Shown: piece after piece, positions 3,467 through 63,954 of the stretch
How positions within the stretch are numbered: the first letter of the stretch is position 1
How the letters are laid out: every line of letters starts with the position of its first letter
Assembly: GCA_947490145.1 (NCBI GenBank)
Contig: CANLGD010000001.1
Coordinates: forward strand, 1-64,000
Length of the DNA: 64,000 nucleotides
Direction: 5' to 3'
From: Flavobacteriia bacterium
GTDB taxonomy: Bacteria; Bacteroidota; Bacteroidia; Flavobacteriales_D; Crocinitomicaceae
The notes under the pieces: generated by a model
The model's input: the letters and a program-made list of their open reading frames with translations, nothing else
The model's database searches: none
Told to the model about the DNA's origin: nothing
Translations under genes and position numbers: made by a program

Positions 3467-4660
3467 TTATTTCAAGGCATTTTTTAAATCTTGCCAAATA
3501 TCATCAACGTGTTCTAAACCAATAGAAAGTCGAACTAATCCGTCAGAAATTCCAACAGACAATCTTTCATCTGGTTTTAATTTTGAGTGAGTTGTTGAGG
3601 CTGGATGAGTGGCAATACTTTTTGCATCACCAAGGTTTGGAGTTAAGGAAAATAATTCCAATTTATTCAAAAATTTTCTTCCAGCTTCTAAACCACCTTT
3701 AATTTCGAAACTTACGATTGCACCTCCTCCAAACATTTGTTTTTTTGCAATTTTATAATTCGGATGACTTTCTAAAAATGGATATTTTACCCAAGAAATT
3801 GAATCAATTTTTTCTAATTTTTTAGCGATTTTTAGCGCGTTTTCTGTCATTCTTTCCACTCGAATGTGTAAAGTTTCGATGGATTTTGAAATTATCCAAG
3901 CATTAAATGGACTTAAAGCTGGACCAGTGTGCCGTGCAAAAGCTTCAATTTTTTTTATTAATTCTTTGCTTCCTAAAATCAATCCACCCAAAGTTCTACC
4001 TTGTCCATCCATAAATTTGGTGGTTGAATGAATTGAAATATGTGCACCTAAATCTAAGGGTCTTTGTAAAATTGGCGTTGCAAAACAATTATCAACTACA
4101 AATAAAATCTTTGCTTTTTTACAAATTTTTCCTACTTTTTCAATATCGATAATTTCTAAAGCAGGATTTGAAGGAGATTCTAAATATAAAATTTTGGTAT
4201 TTTCTTGAATAGCATTTTTGTATCCTTCATAATCCAATGCATCAACATAAGTTGTTGTAATTCCCCATTTTGGGAAAATTTCTGTAAATAATCTATGTGT
4301 TGATCCAAAAACTGAACGACTTGAAATAATGTGATTTCCCGCTTTAAGTAAAGCTCCAAAAGTCGTAAAAATGGCAGCCATTCCTGTAGAAGTTGCCCAA
4401 CCAGTTTCAGCATTTTCAAGCAGAGCAACTTTTTCAATCAATTCTTGTACATTCGGATTTGAATAACGAGAATAAATGTTTCCCTCTTGTTCGTCAGCAA
4501 AAACAGCAGCCATTTCTTCAGCAGAATCAAAGGTAAAACTACTTGTCAAAAACAAAGGATTTGAGTGTTCCTTTTGGCTCGTTTTTTCGATGTGTTTTCT
4601 GATTGCAAGGGTTTCAGCTTTTGCAGATTTCAGAAACTCGTTTTTTTTATTTTTAGACAT
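3467..4660 (-). CDS. metZ: O-succinyl/O-acetylhomoserine sulfhydrylase (trans-sulfuration PLP enzyme)
   Basis: A 397-residue PLP enzyme of the Cys/Met metabolism family. The expected residues are present: YSRYSNPN at 63-70, the PLP-binding Asp190, and the Schiff-base Lys215 in HSTTKFMDGQGR. The DGQGR after the lysine is typical of MetZ-type homoserine sulfhydrylases, which combine an acylated homoserine with sulfide to form homocysteine in the cytoplasm. The window also has metX and homoserine dehydrogenase but no MetB/MetC pair, which favours direct sulfhydrylation. The start overlaps the end of the OsmC gene by 8 nt, so the two are probably co-translated. Cystathionine gamma-synthase or methionine gamma-lyase activity cannot be excluded from sequence. 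Confidence 0.88.
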   Translation of the reverse strand: MSKNKKNEFLKSAKAETLAIRKHIEKTSQKEHSNPLFLTSSFTFDSAEEMAAVFADEQEGNIYSRYSNPNVQELIEKVALLENAETGWATSTGMAAIFTTFGALLKAGNHIISSRSVFGSTHRLFTEIFPKWGITTTYVDALDYEGYKNAIQENTKILYLESPSNPALEIIDIEKVGKICKKAKILFVVDNCFATPILQRPLDLGAHISIHSTTKFMDGQGRTLGGLILGSKELIKKIEAFARHTGPALSPFNAWIISKSIETLHIRVERMTENALKIAKKLEKIDSISWVKYPFLESHPNYKIAKKQMFGGGAIVSFEIKGGLEAGRKFLNKLELFSLTPNLGDAKSIATHPASTTHSKLKPDERLSVGISDGLVRLSIGLEHVDDIWQDLKNALK

Positions 4661-5069
4661 TTGCTTGAATAATTTGATGCGTTATTTTGATTTCTTTTGC
4701 TAAACTTGCTGAAACAGAACAATATTTTTCCAAACTAAGAATGACAGCTTTTTTAACTTGGTCAATAGGATCATTTTCCCCAATTTTAAAAAGTACATGA
4801 ATTTTTTCAAAAGGCGAAGGAACTCCGTCTTTACGATTTCCTTTAACAATCACTTCGTAGTTTGAAAGTTCGATTCTTTTTTTCTTTAGAATCAATAAAA
4901 TATCAATGCTTGCACAAGAAATCATACTTGAAAGCAATAACTCCATTGGACGCATTCCCAAATTTTCTCCTCCAATTGCTGGATTTGCATCTGAGTTCAC
5001 TACATTTCCTTCAGAATTTAAAGCTTGAAACGCAAGTTTGTCGTTTAATCTCCTAAGTGTAATTTTCAT
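4653..5069 (-). CDS. OsmC family protein
   Basis: A 138-residue OsmC/Ohr-fold protein. Typical features are GGENLGMRPMELLLSSMISCASIDILLILKKK in the middle of the protein and a conserved C-terminal part, SLEKYCSVSASLAKEIKI, holding the second cysteine. OsmC proteins reduce organic hydroperoxides through two cysteines; many members next to sulfur genes are uncharacterised. Here the gene lies between a YeeE/YedE sulfur-transport gene (2-nt gap) and metZ (8-nt overlap), so a link to thiol or persulfide handling is plausible but inferred. Confidence 0.85.
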   Translation of the reverse strand: MKITLRRLNDKLAFQALNSEGNVVNSDANPAIGGENLGMRPMELLLSSMISCASIDILLILKKKRIELSNYEVIVKGNRKDGVPSPFEKIHVLFKIGENDPIDQVKKAVILSLEKYCSVSASLAKEIKITHQIIQANV

Positions 5070-5071
5070 TT

Positions 5072-5497
5072 TTAATGAGGTAATTTATCTTTCAAAAGTG
5101 CATAAAAAAATGTTCCTGACAAGGCTCCAATCAATAAAAGTAAGCCTAATTTCCATGAAAGTCCGACTAAAATGAAGAGAGGGGCAGAGCAGGCTCCCGT
5201 TAGTCCCCAGCCTAAACCAAACAAAATTCCACCAAATAAATTAGCCTTCCAAATTAAAGGTTTATCTTTTAATTTTACAGGATTATTGTTCATACTTTTA
5301 ATTTTAAGTTTTTTGATAATAATTAAACTTAAAGCACCAGTGACAACTGCTGAACCTAAAAGTCCAAACATATGAAATGATTGAAAATGAAACATTTCTT
5401 GAATGCGATACCAAGAAATTGCTTGAGATTCTGTTAGGACAAATCCTAAAAATGCACCCAAACTAATACTTATGATGATGTTTGTAATTTTTTTCAT
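5072..5497 (-). CDS. YeeE/YedE (DUF6691) sulfur-transport membrane protein, half 2
   Basis: A 141-residue membrane protein with four hydrophobic segments. Its signature GLGWGLTGACSAPLFILVG matches the second half of YeeE/YedE thiosulfate transporters, whose conserved cysteine lines the conduction path. The ATG at 5497 (MKKITNIIISISLG) is preferred over the ATG at 5539: it begins one base after the stop of the partner gene and directly precedes the first membrane helix, while the longer version would add a polar overlapping extension. It probably pairs with the 5499-5990 product to import reduced sulfur. Confidence 0.82.
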   Translation of the reverse strand: MKKITNIIISISLGAFLGFVLTESQAISWYRIQEMFHFQSFHMFGLLGSAVVTGALSLIIIKKLKIKSMNNNPVKLKDKPLIWKANLFGGILFGLGWGLTGACSAPLFILVGLSWKLGLLLLIGALSGTFFYALLKDKLPH

Positions 5498-5498
5498 T

Positions 5499-5990
5499 TT
5501 AGTAAGAGAATAATATTGGATTAACAAAATATGCAACAATTAAACCGCCGACAAAAAAGCCAATTGTAGCAATGAATGAAGCAGGGGAGAGCTGTGACAT
5601 TCCCATGATACAATGTCCAGCAGTACAGCCATTTGAGTAACGTGCTCCAAATCCAACTAAAAATCCACCGCCAAGAAAAATAAACCAATTTTCAAGCGAA
5701 TAGAAATCAACTGGAAAATTATTTTTTAAATCTTCATTGAAAAAGAAATCAGAATCATTGGTAAAAAAATAATATAATCCAACTCCGATTAATCCCAAAG
5801 CAAATTGAATTTGCCAAGCATCAACTTTGTTATCGTATGAAAAATAATTTGGCTTCTTCGTAAATAATGAAATTAAATAGCGATAAGACGAAGAAACACC
5901 AAATTGTTTTTCCCTCAAAATTAGTAAAAGTGGTACAATCAATCCAATCATTGGACCAGCGATATACCAAGCTAAAGGTTCTTTGTTCAT
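5499..5990 (-). CDS. YeeE/YedE sulfur-transport membrane protein, half 1
   Basis: A 163-residue inner-membrane protein with the motif GFGARYSNGCTAGHCIMGMSQLSP near residues 114-137. This is the conserved cysteine-containing loop of YeeE/YedE (TsuA-like) permeases. The family imports thiosulfate or related reduced sulfur. Splitting the transporter into two adjacent half-size genes is common in Bacteroidota and Proteobacteria. The gap to the next gene is one base. It lies 126 bp downstream of homoserine dehydrogenase, so it may be read through from the SAM-controlled transcript or have its own promoter. Confidence 0.82.
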   Translation of the reverse strand: MNKEPLAWYIAGPMIGLIVPLLLILREKQFGVSSSYRYLISLFTKKPNYFSYDNKVDAWQIQFALGLIGVGLYYFFTNDSDFFFNEDLKNNFPVDFYSLENWFIFLGGGFLVGFGARYSNGCTAGHCIMGMSQLSPASFIATIGFFVGGLIVAYFVNPILFSY

Positions 5991-6116: not shown

Positions 6117-7361
6117 TCAATTAAATACTTGCAAAAATAACTTCTCACCAGCGATATTTTCAAAATCAGATTCGTTTAAAAATGGTTCTGGTAAGACAGC
6201 AAAAAACAAGTTTGATAAATTATTGAAATTAAATTGTTTTAATTCTGAAAATTTTACCCAACCAGTTTGAAAATTGTATGCTTTACTTTGAAAAATTTCA
6301 TCAATGTTGTAAAATGGAATTTCTTGAATTGCTTCTATAAATTCAGATCCGATGTAAATTTTTAAGTAGAAATCATCCGTAAAATTTAAAACTTCATTTT
6401 CATTTGTTTTTTTGTATTCATAAGCATAATCATATTGAAGTGCCGAAACGTCTGATAAAACAGCACTTGCAGTCGGATAAGCTCCAGCTCCTTTTCCTAA
6501 AAATAATTGTTTGTCAGAAAATAAAGCTTCCACAGAAACAGAATTAAATTCATTATTTACATTATAGGCAACATTGTCTTCTTTAATGAAATGAGGAGCT
6601 ACAAATCCAGCTAAATGATTTCCAAATTTTTCTGTTCGTGAGAATAATTTGATTCTGAATCCTTTTTCCGCTGCGTATTTTACATCTTGCGTCTTGATAT
6701 TTCTAATTCCGTAATTGAAAATGTCGTCTGGTTTTAAAGTTAAGCCAAAAGCATGTTTTATCAAAATCAATAATTTGTATTTTGAATCAAAACCATCCAC
6801 ATCTAGGGTTGGATCAGATTCTGCAAATCCTAATTCTTGCGCTTCAGCTAAAGCAGTTTCATAATCTTTACCAGAATTTGTTTGAGTCAAAATATAATTT
6901 GTTGTACCGTTCACAATTCCTTGAATTCCTGATAAGGAATCGTTGTTGTAATATTCTTCTAAGTTTCTGATAATCGGAATACTACCACCAACTGAAGCTT
7001 CGTAAAGTAAAGATAAATTGTTCGCTTTTGCTAAGTTTAATAATTCTTCATAATTTTCTGCAATCATTTTTTTGTTTGCAGTAACAACGTGTTTTCCTCT
7101 TTTTAATGCCTCAGAAACAATCAAAAATGCTGCTCTTGAATCGTCTATTAATTCTACTACTAGATTGATTTCATTGTCTAAAAGTATGTCAGATTTAGCA
7201 TAAGAAAAATTTTCTTTTGCAATTGATCGAGCTTTGTTTGGGTTTTTTACGACAATTTTTTTAATTGTTGCATCTAATAAATTGGATTGGTTTAAAACTT
7301 CATATAAACCGTTTCCTACGCAACCAAAACCAAATAATCCTATGTTTAATTTATTTCTCAT
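6117..7361 (-). CDS. hom: Homoserine dehydrogenase
   Basis: A 414-residue monofunctional enzyme that reduces aspartate-semialdehyde to homoserine, the branch point to methionine and threonine. The N-terminal Rossmann fold starts NIGLFGFGCVGNGLYEVL. The catalytic core holds GGSIPIIRNLEEY and GIQGIVNGTTNYIL near residues 124-154, followed by LGFAESDPTLDVDGFDSKYKLLIL, all standard for the family. No aspartokinase domain is fused. It lies 74 bp downstream of metX on the same strand, so it belongs to the SAM-riboswitch methionine unit. Bacteroidota commonly have a second, aspartokinase-fused copy elsewhere, which would make this the methionine-dedicated copy (inferred). Confidence 0.92.
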   Translation of the reverse strand: MRNKLNIGLFGFGCVGNGLYEVLNQSNLLDATIKKIVVKNPNKARSIAKENFSYAKSDILLDNEINLVVELIDDSRAAFLIVSEALKRGKHVVTANKKMIAENYEELLNLAKANNLSLLYEASVGGSIPIIRNLEEYYNNDSLSGIQGIVNGTTNYILTQTNSGKDYETALAEAQELGFAESDPTLDVDGFDSKYKLLILIKHAFGLTLKPDDIFNYGIRNIKTQDVKYAAEKGFRIKLFSRTEKFGNHLAGFVAPHFIKEDNVAYNVNNEFNSVSVEALFSDKQLFLGKGAGAYPTASAVLSDVSALQYDYAYEYKKTNENEVLNFTDDFYLKIYIGSEFIEAIQEIPFYNIDEIFQSKAYNFQTGWVKFSELKQFNFNNLSNLFFAVLPEPFLNESDFENIAGEKLFLQVFN

Positions 7362-7435: not shown

Positions 7436-8446
7436 TTATTTTAAAAATTCATTTATTATTTCATCTAACTTTTCTGTTTCTACTAAAAAGCCATCATGAC
7501 CAAAAATTGAGTCGATGATTTTTAATGTTGCATTTGGAATTGTTTTTGCTAAAAATTCTTGTTCACTTAATGGAAAAAGTAGGTCACTTGAAATTCCAAT
7601 TACTAATGTTTTTGCTGATATTTCTTCTAAAGCATCTCTTATTGAAGTTCTATTTCTTCCAATATTGTGCGAATCCATAGCTTTGGTTAAAGTCCAATAT
7701 GAATATGCATTGAAACGGTTTACTAGTTTTTGTCCTTGGTAATTTTGATAAGATGAAGCTTTGAACTCATCAGTTTTATTCAAATCCTGCTCACTTTGAG
7801 TTTTGTTATAACTTTCATAAGATCGATAACTCAACATCGCAATGCTTCGAGCTGCTTTTAAACCCTTTTCGCCACCATTTTCTATATTTAGTTCAAAAGT
7901 TGAATCTGCGGATATAGCCAATCTTTGCGCTTCATTAAAAGCAATTCCAAAAGGAGAATGAAAAGCATTTGTTGCAATAAGAATTAAATTTTTTAATTTT
8001 TCTCTTAGAATAAATGAAAATTCTTGAGCTTGTTGGCCACCTAAAGATGAGCCAATTAACAAATTTATTTCAGAAATATTTAATTTTTCCCTTAATAATT
8101 CATGCGCATTTGCCATGTCTCTCGGAGTAATCAAGGGGAAATTTTGAAAAAACTTTTCTCCATTCGATTTTTCACTCAAAGGACCCGTTGAACCATAACA
8201 TGAACCGATAATATTTGCACATACGACAAAATATTCTTCTTTGTCAAAATAGTCGTTTGCACCAAAAAGTCCATTCCACCAATCACTGACATCCGAATTT
8301 GCTGTTAAAGCATGGCAAACCCATACAACTTCTGAATACTGATTTAATTCCCCAAAAGTATGGTAATTGATTTTTAAATTTTCTATTTTTTGCGATGATT
8401 CAAGAGTAAATTCCTTGAAAAATACGTGATTTTCTGATTTTTTCAT
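7436..8446 (-). CDS. metX: Homoserine O-acetyltransferase (alpha/beta hydrolase fold)
   Basis: A 336-residue enzyme that acylates homoserine, the first committed step to methionine. The nucleophile elbow IGSSLGGQQA places Ser134 as the catalytic serine. The upstream NIIGSCYGSTGP (79-90) is the family fingerprint, and the C-terminal SDLLFP and GHDGFLVE segments supply the catalytic Asp and His. Acyl-CoA preference (acetyl or succinyl) cannot be settled by eye. The 5' leader of about 340 nt carries a SAM-I riboswitch and a Cys-rich short ORF, so repression by SAM is expected. It is the first structural gene of the methionine unit. Confidence 0.92.
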   Translation of the reverse strand: MKKSENHVFFKEFTLESSQKIENLKINYHTFGELNQYSEVVWVCHALTANSDVSDWWNGLFGANDYFDKEEYFVVCANIIGSCYGSTGPLSEKSNGEKFFQNFPLITPRDMANAHELLREKLNISEINLLIGSSLGGQQAQEFSFILREKLKNLILIATNAFHSPFGIAFNEAQRLAISADSTFELNIENGGEKGLKAARSIAMLSYRSYESYNKTQSEQDLNKTDEFKASSYQNYQGQKLVNRFNAYSYWTLTKAMDSHNIGRNRTSIRDALEEISAKTLVIGISSDLLFPLSEQEFLAKTIPNATLKIIDSIFGHDGFLVETEKLDEIINEFLK

Positions 8447-8484
8447 TTTTGAAGTTTAAAATATGGATAATTAAGATTAACATC

Positions 8485-8601
8485 TTAGCAACACATACAG
8501 CAACAACAAATTTGAATTTTAGAAATAGAAATTTTTGAGTCAATTAGATTAAACTGTTGACTTTTTTTGTTATTCTTACGGAAATAAACTTGTTTTTTCA
8601 T
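8485..8601 (-). CDS. Cys-rich short leader ORF between SAM riboswitch and metX
   Basis: A 38-codon ORF begins ATG AAA AAA CAA and ends in codons for Ile-Cys-Cys-Cys-Cys-Met-Cys-Cys followed by TAA. Six of the last seven codons are cysteine (TGT TGT TGC TGT ATG TGT TGC; the arrangement is read directly from the minus strand). Its stop codon forms the 5' end of a perfect 6-bp hairpin (TAAGAT, loop GTTA, ATCTTA; 8472-8487). metX starts 38 nt after the stop. Position and composition are those of a regulatory leader peptide that could stall when Cys-tRNA is scarce. Translation has not been shown. Too short for usual gene callers. Confidence 0.6.
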   Translation of the reverse strand: MKKQVYFRKNNKKSQQFNLIDSKISISKIQICCCCMCC

Positions 8602-8634
8602 AACTTAATTTATATTCATCCTAAACAACATGTT

Positions 8635-8744
8635 TAAGAATCTGGATTTGGCACCGGTTTTCCAACTCTCGAAGTTATTTACTAACGAGAACTTTAAGTT
8701 GGTTGCCAGAGGGTCTTCGAGCCAGTCTCTCACCTCTTCTTTAT
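8635..8744 (-). promoter_or_regulatory. SAM-I (S-box) riboswitch
   Basis: Read on the minus strand, the conserved S-box blocks occur in order: AAGAAGAGGTGAGAGACTGG, then CCCTCTGGCAACC, then GGTGCCAAATCC, closed by a TTCTT that can pair with the initial AAGAA as P1. These are the hallmark SAM-I aptamer sequences. It lies about 190 nt upstream of metX and just before the Cys-rich short ORF. No intrinsic terminator with a T-run is visible between aptamer and metX, so control may act on translation or on the short ORF. Confidence 0.92.
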
Positions 8745-8789
8745 AAATCATATTCCGTAGAAAAAGAGTTTCTACTTTTTTTGATATTG

Positions 8790-60537: not shown

Positions 60538-62499
60538 TTAATTAAATCCATAGCTTATTGAGATTAAATAGTTAATTCCGGGCATTGCATAATTTCGGAT
60601 GTAAGAATATGATTGATTTAAACAGTTTTTGACTGAAAAAGAATAACGCAAATTTGATTTCTGAATTTTTTGTTTGAAAAATAATGAGAAATCAAATGTG
60701 TAAAACTGTTGAACTTCATTACTTTTGATATTCTCATTCAATGCATAACGCAAAGAATTGTAATATCCGTTCACATTTAAACCACAATTTTTATATTGAA
60801 AAGAGAAATTTGCATTTAAAATATGTTTGGGCAAATAGGCTAATTGATGTCTGTAAGTTGCTGATTTTTTGTCAGAAACATCAGTAATATCTTGAAAAGT
60901 GTAAGATAAACTTGTAAGAAAATTAATTTTATTATTAAAATCTCTTTCGTGAGAAAGTTGTAAGTCAAAACCCAAAACGCGAGCTTTTCCAACATTTTGA
61001 ATTGACCAAATGAATAAATTTTTAGTAGGAATAGCCACGATTTTGTTTTCAACTAAATTGGAATAGCCATCAAAAACAATGTTTAAAATATTATTTTTAA
61101 TATTGAACATATAATTTGTTCCAATATTAAATTGATTGGCAATTTCAGGTTTTAAATGTGAATTACCAATTTGATTGTAATACATTTCATTAAAATTTGG
61201 CATTCTAAATGTTCTTTTTAGAGAAAATTTTAATGTACCTAAAAAAGAAATTGGGCTCGAAGAAAAAATCAATAATGTAGGATTGAAATTGAATTTTTGA
61301 TACGTATTTGTATCATTTATTTGTTGATTGTAAACATGTTGCAATCCCAAAGAGAAAGCATAATTCCATTTGTAATTTAAATCTTTTGTTAAATCAACAA
61401 AAACTTTTGAATGAAATCGTTGAATTCCAGTGCCGAAATTTTCTGAATTTTTCAACAATGAATAATTTTCTTCTAAACCAAAATTGAATTTTAATCTATT
61501 CAGAACAATTTTTCTAAAAACTGTTCCAAGAGAAATGTTAGAATTAAAATACGTTGATTTCAGATAACCTTGTGGATTCAAATATCCAGAATCAAGGTAA
61601 ATTAATTCATCGTAGCGAGCTGACAAATAAGTTCTTGAAAGGGTCTTTTTTATATTAAAAATATAATCTCCGTTTAATGTGACATTTTTATTTTTCAAAT
61701 ATTGATTTGCTGTTGGATTGTATAAAATCACAGCTCCTGGCAAACCTTTGTCAGAAAAATTAGATAAAAGTTGAAATTTTAAGCGACTTTTTGCATTAAT
61801 CTGATATCCATAACTCAATCCGGAATAAAATTCTTGTAGCTCATTATTTGTTCTAGTTAAATCGTCTGTTTCAGAATAATTTGCAACTTTAAAAGGGAAA
61901 TTTCCATTTGCTTCTCTATATTTTCCAAAAAGTGATAGATACATTTTTTTTCGATTCCATTTTGTGCTCAAATATGAATCTGTTTGACCAAAAGAACCAA
62001 TTTTGAAATTTGATTTTAGTTGAAAGGTGTCAAGAGAAAATTGATTCTCAAAAGTTGTAAGTTTTAAATTATTTGCAGTAAAAAAAGCTGAAACGACTTC
62101 CAAATTTTCACTTGAATTTTGAAAAGTAAATGTTAATTCTTTTAAATTTTCTATTTGAATCGTACTCAAATCTAATTGAGAAGTTTGTGCATTTTGAATC
62201 AAAAAACCATCAACAATGATTCCGGAATGAGTTCCATTTATTCCCCTTGCAGAAATGGTTTTCATTCCACCTAAACCGCCATAATTTTTCAATGAAATCC
62301 CTGGGACATTTCGTAATAAATCACCTAAATCTTCTGGTTGACGTTTTAGAATATCATCTCTGTATAATTTGAAATCAATTTTTGGTTTTAAGCGCAATGA
62401 TAAATCAAAGACTTGAATTTCTTCCAATTCTTGTTCCTTAACCTGCGAAAAAGTCAGGTTTGAAAGGAATAAAATGGATATGAGAATTACTTTTTTCAC
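60538..62499 (-). CDS. BtuB-like TonB-dependent cobalamin receptor
   Basis: A 653-residue outer-membrane receptor. The start is taken as GTG 62499, which yields a normal signal peptide KKVILISILFLSNLTFSQ; the longer TTG reading (62529) would begin inside a hairpin. The plug domain has QPEDLGDLLRNVPGISLKNYGGLGGMKTISARGINGTHSGIIVDGF. A 22-stranded barrel follows, ending with a C-terminal aromatic strand (NYLISISYGFN). A SAM- or iron-type receptor is possible by fold, but the cobalamin riboswitch and BtuG/BtuH-like neighbours point to B12. Confidence 0.9.
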   Translation of the reverse strand: MKKVILISILFLSNLTFSQVKEQELEEIQVFDLSLRLKPKIDFKLYRDDILKRQPEDLGDLLRNVPGISLKNYGGLGGMKTISARGINGTHSGIIVDGFLIQNAQTSQLDLSTIQIENLKELTFTFQNSSENLEVVSAFFTANNLKLTTFENQFSLDTFQLKSNFKIGSFGQTDSYLSTKWNRKKMYLSLFGKYREANGNFPFKVANYSETDDLTRTNNELQEFYSGLSYGYQINAKSRLKFQLLSNFSDKGLPGAVILYNPTANQYLKNKNVTLNGDYIFNIKKTLSRTYLSARYDELIYLDSGYLNPQGYLKSTYFNSNISLGTVFRKIVLNRLKFNFGLEENYSLLKNSENFGTGIQRFHSKVFVDLTKDLNYKWNYAFSLGLQHVYNQQINDTNTYQKFNFNPTLLIFSSSPISFLGTLKFSLKRTFRMPNFNEMYYNQIGNSHLKPEIANQFNIGTNYMFNIKNNILNIVFDGYSNLVENKIVAIPTKNLFIWSIQNVGKARVLGFDLQLSHERDFNNKINFLTSLSYTFQDITDVSDKKSATYRHQLAYLPKHILNANFSFQYKNCGLNVNGYYNSLRYALNENIKSNEVQQFYTFDFSLFFKQKIQKSNLRYSFSVKNCLNQSYSYIRNYAMPGINYLISISYGFN

Positions 62500-62538
62500 A
62501 AAAATAAACTGTCGCTTGAATTGTTTCAAGCGACAGTT
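62500..62538 (-). terminator. Strong intra-operon hairpin between btuH-like and btuB-like genes
   Basis: A perfect 14-bp stem, AACTGTCGCTTGAA / TTCAAGCGACAGTT, with a 4-nt loop (62507-62538), is followed on the minus strand by TTATTTTTG, immediately before the GTG start. It looks like an intrinsic terminator placed inside the operon. Confidence 0.8.
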
Positions 62539-62546
62539 AGATTTAA

Positions 62547-63524
62547 TTACTTTATGATTTTTTGCGTTGAAACAAGACCTTTGTTTTCAATGTTTATGAA
62601 ATAAATTCCTGCTTCAAAAGCTGAAAAATCAATTTGTGTAAATTCAGAATGATTTGAACTAAACAATATTTTTCCTTCCAAATTTGAAAGCGTTAATTTA
62701 CCTTCAGAACCTTTGACAGTTAATACAGAATTAACAGGATTTGGATAAATTTCAAATGCAGTTTTTGATAATTCATTCGTTGCTAGAGTTTCTGAATAAT
62801 TCAAATTATCTAACGCTAAGTAAGTTGGTGTATTGATGTAACCAAAAGACATATCCGTAGATTCAAAACGGAAAGTAAGGTGTTTTACGACTCCCAAAGG
62901 ACTTAAGTCAACATTTGTAAAAGAATCTAAAATGTAAGCATTTGTGCCTTGAAAATCAGCTAAATAAAATAAAACTGAATCCGTGTGAGTCATCGAAGTA
63001 TTCATTCCGATAATCCAAACACGCAAAAAATCTTCTCCATTTGTTCCATCATCAACACCTGCTGCATTTAATGGTGAGCCAAAAACTTTAGCGTAAGCAT
63101 CACCTGAAATCATTGATTTTGCAGCATAAGTTGTATTGTTGATTTTAACAGAATCCATTTGAACGATGTTTGAAAAGGTAATCAAAGCTTCAGGATAAAG
63201 TACAGCGTATTTTTGACTTGAATTTGCGCCAGATCCAGAAAAGGAGGAATATTGATTCGCGTAACCTGGAGTTAAAGCATCGGTCATATTAGAAACAGAA
63301 AAACCATTCCATCCGAAAAATCCACCACCAAAATCAGTATAAACATTAGAGAAATTTGCAGCACTTGCGCCACCATTTATTGTAAATGTTCCAACATTAT
63401 CAGAACCATTGTAAAAAGTGTCCGCTTGAGAAAGCGCGAAATTTTCGAAATCAACAGTGTTTTGTTGTGAGAAACTAAGTGCAGTTGAGCCTGCGACAAA
63501 AATTGAAAATAATAATTTTTTCAT
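62547..63524 (-). CDS. BtuH-like DUF4465 surface protein with T9SS sorting tail
   Basis: A 325-residue secreted protein. Signal peptide KKLLFSIFVAGSTALSFSQ. The DUF4465 core is visible in VDFENFALSQADTFYNGSDNVG, GGFFGWNGFSVSNMTDALTPGYANQYSSFSGSG and VLFYLADFQG, with FGYINTPTYLALDNLNYSE. BtuH proteins of this family bind cobalamin in Bacteroides. The last ~75 residues (FEIYPNPVNSVLTVKGSEGKLTLSNLEGKILF to GIYFINIE) are a type A sorting domain, so it is anchored by the T9SS and not a lipoprotein. It is the first gene after the cobalamin riboswitch. Confidence 0.88.
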   Translation of the reverse strand: MKKLLFSIFVAGSTALSFSQQNTVDFENFALSQADTFYNGSDNVGTFTINGGASAANFSNVYTDFGGGFFGWNGFSVSNMTDALTPGYANQYSSFSGSGANSSQKYAVLYPEALITFSNIVQMDSVKINNTTYAAKSMISGDAYAKVFGSPLNAAGVDDGTNGEDFLRVWIIGMNTSMTHTDSVLFYLADFQGTNAYILDSFTNVDLSPLGVVKHLTFRFESTDMSFGYINTPTYLALDNLNYSETLATNELSKTAFEIYPNPVNSVLTVKGSEGKLTLSNLEGKILFSSNHSEFTQIDFSAFEAGIYFINIENKGLVSTQKIIK

Positions 63525-63654: not shown

Positions 63655-63762
63655 CTCAACTCTTCGTTATTTTAAAAATTCAATTTTTTCATTAGCCTTA
63701 GCTAACTCAAAAATAGATTATTTAAAAAGCCTCAATTTGAGAATTTTAAAAATGTCTAAAAC
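63655..63762. repeat. Dispersed repeat, copy A
   Basis: On the plus strand it reads AACTCTTCGTTATTTTAAAA, then TCATTAGCCTTAGCTAACTC and TTTAAAAAGCCTCAATTTGAG. It lies immediately 3' of the cobalamin aptamer in transcript direction, in the 240-bp leader of the btuH-like gene. The core is TTAGC-CTTA-GCTAA. Copy B (60431-60535) is inverted and copy C (26390-26475) is direct. Confidence 0.75.
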
Positions 63763-63764
63763 TA

Positions 63765-63945
63765 TTTTTAGCAGGTATTCTGACTTGTTCCAATACTTTT
63801 TCGTCTTCCCATCTGTTTAGGACAGTGATTTTTCGGTTTTGACACCGAGAAAAAGTTTTTGAGAACTTACAGCTGCAGATACAGTTCCTGATTTACACAG
63901 GATTCCCTTTTAACTATCCACCGAGGCGGATTACTAAAAACCGTT
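63765..63945 (-). promoter_or_regulatory. Cobalamin (AdoCbl) riboswitch
   Basis: On the minus strand the aptamer hallmarks occur in order: GGTGGATAGTTAAAAGGGAA, then TCCTGTGTAAATCAGGAACTG, then GCAGCTGTAA (B12-box core), then CACTG, GGGAAGAC and finally the AAGTCAGAATACCTGC block. These match the canonical cobalamin riboswitch. It lies upstream of the btuH/btuB/btuG-like genes and would shut them when cobalamin is plentiful. Confidence 0.9.
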
Positions 63946-63946
63946 G

Positions 63947-63954
63947 CAAAGATA
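63947..63954 (-). promoter_or_regulatory. -7 promoter element for the cobalamin operon
   Basis: TATCTTTG on the minus strand fits the TAnnTTTG consensus and lies 1-5 nt before the riboswitch start. No clear TTG -33 box is present at the expected distance, and the sequence ends near there. Confidence 0.5.

Follow-up and report, generated by a model that had tools for sequence, protein, structure and literature searches.

A SAM-I riboswitch and a short leader ORF ending in cysteine and methionine codons stand in series ahead of metX, and the arrangement is best explained as RNA-level control of the methionine operon by two inputs, a reading that we consider likely in the absence of expression, ribosome-profiling or binding data. 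Metabolite riboswitches and amino-acid leader peptides are usually described separately; here both lie on one RNA and the first apparently controls translation of the second, which offers a directly testable logic gate in Bacteroidota.

Aptamer, leader and operon in the window

The elements concerned were located in the window, i.e. the whole 64,000-nucleotide stretch of DNA that was analysed, as follows.

8743-8749, minus strand: 5′ strand of the P1 stem, GAUUUAU, without the C seen in metH-type P1 (from the sequence)
8607-8749, minus strand: SAM-I riboswitch aptamer (Rfam RF00162, 63.4 bits, E 2.1e-12, full model 1-108; RNA model R1, 123.4 bits)
8607-8613, minus strand: 3′ strand of P1, AUAAAUU, ending 5 nt before the leader AUG; putative site at which SAM blocks leader initiation, the occlusion being inferred
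8485-8601, minus strand: leader ORF, MKKQVYFRKNNKKSQQFNLIDSKISISKIQICCCCMCC, 38 codons (ORF call and comparison of loci)
8488-8508, minus strand: putative sensor codons Cys-Cys-Cys-Cys-Met-Cys-Cys, the last seven of the leader (sequence and enrichment across leaders)
8493-8517, minus strand: 5′ side of a predicted helix hiding the metX start (RNAduplex -10.8 kcal/mol)
8472-8487, minus strand: perfect 6-bp hairpin, TAAGAT-loop-ATCTTA, including the leader stop codon (-4.2 kcal/mol; at chance level alone)
8441-8466, minus strand: 3′ side of the predicted helix, the metX translation start region (opening cost 6.9 kcal/mol)
7436-8446, minus strand: metX, homoserine O-acetyltransferase, first gene of the apparent operon (NCBIfam TIGR01392, E 1.8e-97, below the equivalog cutoff; Pfam Abhydrolase_1)
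6117-7361, minus strand: homoserine dehydrogenase (NF004976, 326 bits, cutoff 205; Pfam PF00742)
5499-5990, minus strand: sulphur-transport membrane protein of the YeeE/YedE type (Pfam PF04143)
5072-5539, minus strand: second sulphur-transport/DUF6691 membrane protein (Pfam PF04143 and PF20398 on the translation of 5072-5500)
4653-5069, minus strand: OsmC-like protein (Pfam PF02566)
3467-4660, minus strand: Cys/Met PLP enzyme of the O-acetyl/O-succinylhomoserine sulfhydrylase type (NF006003, 520.7 bits, cutoff 522; Pfam PF01053)

The aptamer matches the whole RF00162 model above its curated cutoff of 44.4 bits, and the leader, ending ICCCCMCC-stop, starts directly after it, with 38 nt between its stop codon and the metX ATG. 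The sequence-only reading had placed a 38-codon ORF ending CCCCMCC between a SAM aptamer and metX, and this held both on the sequence and on the RF00162 match. Exact runs of four TGY codons occur at 29 sites in the genome, and only that of the leader sits in an intergenic short ATG-started ORF. A profile search of the leader peptide gave no Pfam or NCBIfam match, and leaders of this type are overlooked by protein-family annotation. The six same-strand genes from metX to the sulfhydrylase-type enzyme form an apparent methionine/sulfur operon, as judged from sequence alone.

Conservation of the aptamer-plus-leader arrangement

The RNA model R1, which covers the aptamer only and was built from 17 metX-type sequences, was run on 240 genomes of the family and returned about 100 matches at or above 85.9 bits, set apart from the metH-type matches at 77 bits or below. 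In total, 103 metX-type SAM aptamer loci, nearly all from Crocinitomicaceae (Flavobacteriales), were analysed, with 48 metH-type loci as controls, and leader ORFs were picked by their position after P1, ignoring Cys content. An ORF of 14-51 codons begins 3-14 nt after P1 in 85 of the 103 loci, and the ATG lies 7-8 nt past P1 in 53 of these 85 leaders. Another 15 loci lack a leader, and their long first ORF (metX in most) has its start 7-11 nt past P1; three loci have neither.

The composition of these leaders is strongly skewed at the end. Across all 85, Cys accounts for 38% of the last 12 codons as against 0.9% of those before (43-fold), and Met for 13.2% as against 0.9% (14-fold). At least three Cys codons are present among the last 12 in 68 of the 85 leaders and in none of the 48 metH-type loci (Fisher p 4e-22), and when Cys and Met are counted together the figures are 78 of 85 and again 0 of 48. 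The leader ATG and the longest TGY run share a reading frame at 59 of 63 loci (p 9e-24); these frame and Fisher p values are indicative only, since related genomes are not independent. As TGT and TGC are both used among leader Cys codons, and about equally (211:188), selection acts on the amino acid. The first 12 nt after the leader ATG (+4 to +15) are 59% A, and an A-rich sequence after the ATG is a typical strong-start context.

The N-terminal sequences of the leaders are unrelated between genera, and only the Cys/Met-rich end is common across 18 or more genera. Between the window genome (G000) and a near relative (G003), the 143-nt aptamer and the last 12 leader codons are identical, all seven substitutions in the leader are confined to its central part, and the two spacers are distinguished by a single A. 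The test set beforehand, that the Cys run be kept while the remainder drifts, was therefore passed, both in this pair and across the genera. Conserved spacing to metX, which had also been named as a sign of support, was not seen: the distance from leader to first gene is not conserved, being about 34-129 nt in most loci.

These data clearly show that the leader ORF and its Cys/Met end are real, under selection and overwhelmingly beyond chance, and they likewise establish the arrangement, its conservation, the Cys/Met composition, the frame constraint and the absence of such leaders at metH riboswitches. That the leader is an amino-acid sensor is very likely, its translation being inferred and not observed. 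The earlier interpretation as an attenuation leader sensing cysteine is supported in the main by the comparison, with the correction that Met is probably read too; no experiment bears on the response to Cys. Four leaders of genus g18 (L119, L121, L133 and L141) have 0-1 Cys in the last 12 codons and keep the start position. They may be decaying or Met-reading sensors, and from sequence alone they suggest that a Cys/Met sensor can be lost.

The P1 stem differs between the two classes of aptamer. That of the metX type is A/U-rich, mostly GAUUUAU paired with AUAAAUU (5′ strand GATTTAT in 66 of 103 aptamers), and that of the metH type mostly begins AACUUAU (AACTTAT in 24 of 48). At the metH-type loci metH starts mostly 35-92 nt downstream of P1; the window genome itself has a second SAM riboswitch, upstream of metH, with no Cys leader ORF there. 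Because the distance from P1 to the next start is near-fixed at metX-type loci, whether a leader or the first gene follows, we take SAM to control initiation at the codon after P1, and since the long first ORF begins at the same spot in 15 loci, the AUG after P1 is the probable riboswitch target. Start sites in Bacteroidota are largely without Shine-Dalgarno sequences. Gating of leader translation by SAM via P1 is put forward as a likely inference; occlusion of the AUG is itself inferred, and there are no SAM-binding data. The sequence-only reading had the leader merely stacked on the riboswitch, and this needs correction: the P1 3′ strand ends 3-14 nt short of the leader start, so that the riboswitch probably decides whether the sensor is translated.

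Two further observations concern particular loci. The leaderless long-ORF loci are L061, L066, L085, L089, L095, L096, L097, L108-L111, L113, L114, L162 and L163, and genus g2 has the leaderless form at metX plus a short-leader form (MKKRMCCCCYEK) at another SAM locus. The same leader as in G003 is found at L217 and L170 (CAMBRH010000048.1 and CAMBRH010000198.1) in a public MAG titled Chitinophaga pinensis, a title that looks wrong.

Proposed mechanism and its rivals

In the mechanism we propose, plentiful SAM would fold the aptamer and close the weak, A/U-only P1 beside the leader AUG, leaving the leader untranslated; at low SAM, ribosomes would translate the leader and reach its terminal Cys/Met codons. 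With Cys-tRNA and Met-tRNA sufficient, the ribosome would run off and the RNA of the Cys/Met codons would re-pair with the metX start, closing it. With Cys-tRNA or Met-tRNA short, it would stall on these codons, cover the strand and free the metX start, i.e. translational attenuation, and metX would be most strongly on at low SAM combined with a shortage of Cys or Met. Leader translation, P1 occlusion, stalling and the direction of control are all inferred; stalling is read as the ON signal because Met and Cys codons precede methionine genes and a shortage of Met should raise Met synthesis. Of the whole model, the precise output step is least secure.

For this output step, the window offers a predicted helix that pairs the Cys/Met codons with the start region of metX and ranks 0.025 against shuffles, yet 0.23 against the start regions of other genera. 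Opening the metX start is predicted to cost 6.9 kcal/mol in the free RNA and 3.0 kcal/mol with a ribosome at the first Cys codon, a stalling gain of 3.9 kcal/mol, where shuffled sequences gain 0.0 (p 0.024). The prediction for a ribosome at the stop codon is that metX opens equally well (1.8 kcal/mol, compared with 3.0 at the Cys codons). Over the metX-first loci, a ribosome at the first Cys cuts the predicted opening cost by 2.35 kcal/mol, compared with 0.53 kcal/mol with shuffled spacers. In the shuffled-spacer test, this gain reaches p≤0.05 in 23 of 57 loci, whereas how tightly the start is closed in absolute terms is unremarkable (6 of 57 at p≤0.05); only the stalling effect stands out. 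The Met-Cys-Cys codons of genus g11, AAAUGUGUUGU, pair with a stretch immediately before metX, ACAACACAUUU; at L142 a different pair, CAAUGAU/AUCAUUG, occupies the same place. These pairings and the predicted stalling effect favour translational attenuation at metX-first loci.

Elsewhere the predicted effect is missing. Loci with the O-acetylhomoserine sulfhydrylase gene first (OAHS-first) showed no stalling gain (0.06) and no pairing of leader tail and start, leader-tail pairing with the metX start is absent in genera g12 and g17, and a second locus in the window genus (L070) gave no stalling gain. As only metX-first loci, and not OAHS-first loci, are predicted to have their start exposed by stalling, the downstream step is the less certain one. 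OAHS-first spacers are about 75-129 nt long and structured, with a recurrent hairpin around GGGCCC and a U-tract in a few (L062, L128 and L116), and these loci might use another downstream device. The GGGCCC motif, usually in a predicted hairpin, was seen in the 75-129-nt leader-OAHS spacers of L062, L067, L081, L084, L107, L116, L117, L128, L134 and L138.

Two candidates for the device were rejected. Leader-tail/start pairing as a universal device is only modestly enriched in a swap test over all loci and fails at OAHS-first loci. The perfect 6-bp hairpin holding the leader stop, with metX 38 nt on, is present just as the sequence-only reading had it, but its role as the attenuator is not demonstrated: when the 160 nt of the region are shuffled with dinucleotides preserved, a mean of 1.05 perfect 6-bp hairpins arises, and the excess of stop-proximal structure over genera is weak (z -0.7) and not decisive. 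A stronger candidate is the helix that the Cys/Met codons would form with the start region of metX.

Of the rival explanations, the one that survives best, and which we still regard as unlikely, retains the two-input sensor and makes its output transcriptional, with the translating or stalled ribosome keeping a terminator, intrinsic or Rho-dependent, from acting in the spacer ahead of the first gene; the poly-Cys leaders of actinobacteria have been proposed to work this way. In its favour, the OAHS-first loci lack start pairing but have structured spacers with the GGGCCC hairpin and, in a few, a U-tract, and Rho has been suggested for actinobacterial cys leaders without terminators (PMC1262725). 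Against it, the 38-nt spacer in the window has no strong hairpin followed by a U-tract, and the classical criterion of a transcription attenuator is not met there; this absence is informative because genuine intrinsic terminators are plain at other Flavobacteriales SAM riboswitches (L004 and L033).

A second rival is translational coupling without amino-acid sensing, in which the riboswitch controls the uORF, the uORF drives the first gene as in the ppe2 system (PMC11260477), and the Cys/Met end has some other role. The ATG position is fixed relative to P1 while the leader sequence is variable, and a ribosome near the leader end is predicted to open the metX start of the window, both of which would suit this reading. 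However, it leaves unexplained why Cys is enriched 43-fold and Met 14-fold at the ends of unrelated peptides, and the gap to the gene is usually 34-129 nt with no stop/start overlap; we judge it very unlikely. The same holds for the proposal that the peptide is itself the product, e.g. a metal-binding or secreted small Cys/Met peptide. Cys and Met (and His weakly) are metal ligands, and Cys-rich leader peptides of the Bordetella type sense copper. Nevertheless, there is no conserved N-terminal sequence and no family match, and the ORF lies ahead of Met/Cys genes and is missing in 15 loci, with a long ORF in its stead. A chance ORF within a U/G-repeat RNA element, whose UGY repeats could pair with the downstream region, is all but excluded by the frame bias (59 of 63), the 0 of 48 metH controls, the mixed TGT/TGC usage and the A-rich start.

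Relation to known systems and occurrence beyond the family

The two-input regulator shares features with several known systems. Poly-Cys short ORFs are known from mycobacteria and other actinobacteria (Canestrari et al. 2020, via PMC9094748 and PMC13236596; predicted in PMC1262725), as the sequence-only reading had stated for Cys-run leader ORFs of actinobacteria. Like the present leaders, these are short upstream ORFs with a Cys run near the stop, ahead of sulfur genes, and a cysteine response has been proposed. Unlike here, the mycobacterial ORFs are leaderless and act alone, whereas a 143-nt SAM aptamer directly precedes the window ORF, so that the leaderless-start criterion is not met (the transcription start is unmapped); Met codons are mixed in, the targets are metX/OAHS and the phylum is different. 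The B12 riboswitch of M. tuberculosis ppe2 (PMC11260477) hides the start of a short ORF, uPPE2, whose translation governs the next gene, much as the occlusion inferred here would. That system relies on stop/start overlap and reinitiation, its uORF is not described as an amino-acid sensor, and the overlap is not met here, with a gap of 38 nt in the window and mostly 34-129 nt elsewhere. The uORFC-8-2 cysS attenuator motif (PMC8632094) likewise has a uORF with tandem Cys codons before a Cys-related gene, but with an intrinsic terminator and no riboswitch.

Like other S-box/SAM-I riboswitches (RF00162), which control methionine genes, the present RNA has this aptamer and would act on such genes; here the apparent expression platform is the leader start codon and not a terminator or the gene's own start. 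In translational attenuation of the ermC type (PMC5118997), the ribosome stalled on the leader is thought to destabilise a helix inhibiting the next gene, as we propose, although the cue there is a macrolide and here would be a shortage of charged Cys or Met tRNA. Tandem riboswitch logic gates (Sherlock et al. 2018, cited in PMC8632094) also combine two signals in one RNA leader, but both inputs there are aptamers, where here one is an aptamer and the other a translated leader. In a Flavobacterium paper of 2021 (PMC9723704) there is mention of leader-peptide attenuation before amino-acid operons, with no details in the main text. The sequence-only reading knew of no such combination, and in the open-access literature searched none was found in which a SAM riboswitch gates a Cys/Met leader.

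In addition, 395 Bacteroidota genomes were scanned for five Cys codons plus a stop, and only part of the matches were followed. Short ATG ORFs ending in at least five Cys codons and a stop lie ahead of cysS (L225 and L296), cysE (L287), cobA/cysG (L244), a sulfate-binding protein gene (L285) and, with a SAM aptamer upstream, cysH (L226, genome G581; family f18). Five of these gene names are directly supported by NCBIfam, and that at L296 rests on close similarity to L225. The expectation that leaders precede genes for the same amino acid is met by all of these (cysS twice, cysE, cysH, cobA/cysG and the sulfate-binding protein gene), an indication that, in Bacteroidota, sulfur genes (cysS, cysE, cysH and metX) are served by leader peptides with Cys runs. 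Among 40 further SAM loci, L306, L315 and L329 of family f14 combine a P1 of GATTTAT with a Cys/Met leader that begins with an ATG at +7 or +9 and precedes OAHS. As it is present in f14 (and f18), the pairing of SAM aptamer and Cys/Met leader is not confined to one family. At the metX loci of Mucilaginibacter and Psychroflexus, found by protein similarity, there was no SAM-Cys leader directly ahead. TGY-x5 plus stop was rejected as a clean phylum-wide marker, many matches being out of frame or within other ORFs.

In this context, we lean, with limited confidence, towards a bolder reading, in which the output of the riboswitch is translation of an amino-acid sensor. The two would form a sequential AND gate, low SAM and then low charged Cys-tRNA/Met-tRNA, that is family-wide despite the varying peptide and downstream device and extends to at least two other Bacteroidota families.

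Several other arrangements were observed. At L299 and L305 (f14), the serial order is another: a SAM aptamer precedes a separate short ORF with Cys/Met codons (e.g. MKKPDEQKLKISTVPNCKTIRMCMELCCSS), which is followed by a TonB/SusC-like gene; L305 has a clear intrinsic terminator between aptamer and short ORF. At L235, L237, L240 and L242, short ORFs ending RMCCCCCC precede a gene resembling a phytanoyl-CoA-dioxygenase-type protein; the downstream gene of L235, the only one of the four tested, had no NCBIfam match, and a sulfur-related role for this target is no more than possible. Finally, the window carries a cobalamin riboswitch (RF00174, 87.6 bits; 63753-63953, minus strand), downstream of which lie a secreted-looking ORF of 325 amino acids (62547-63524) and a TonB-dependent-receptor-like ORF (60538-62529).
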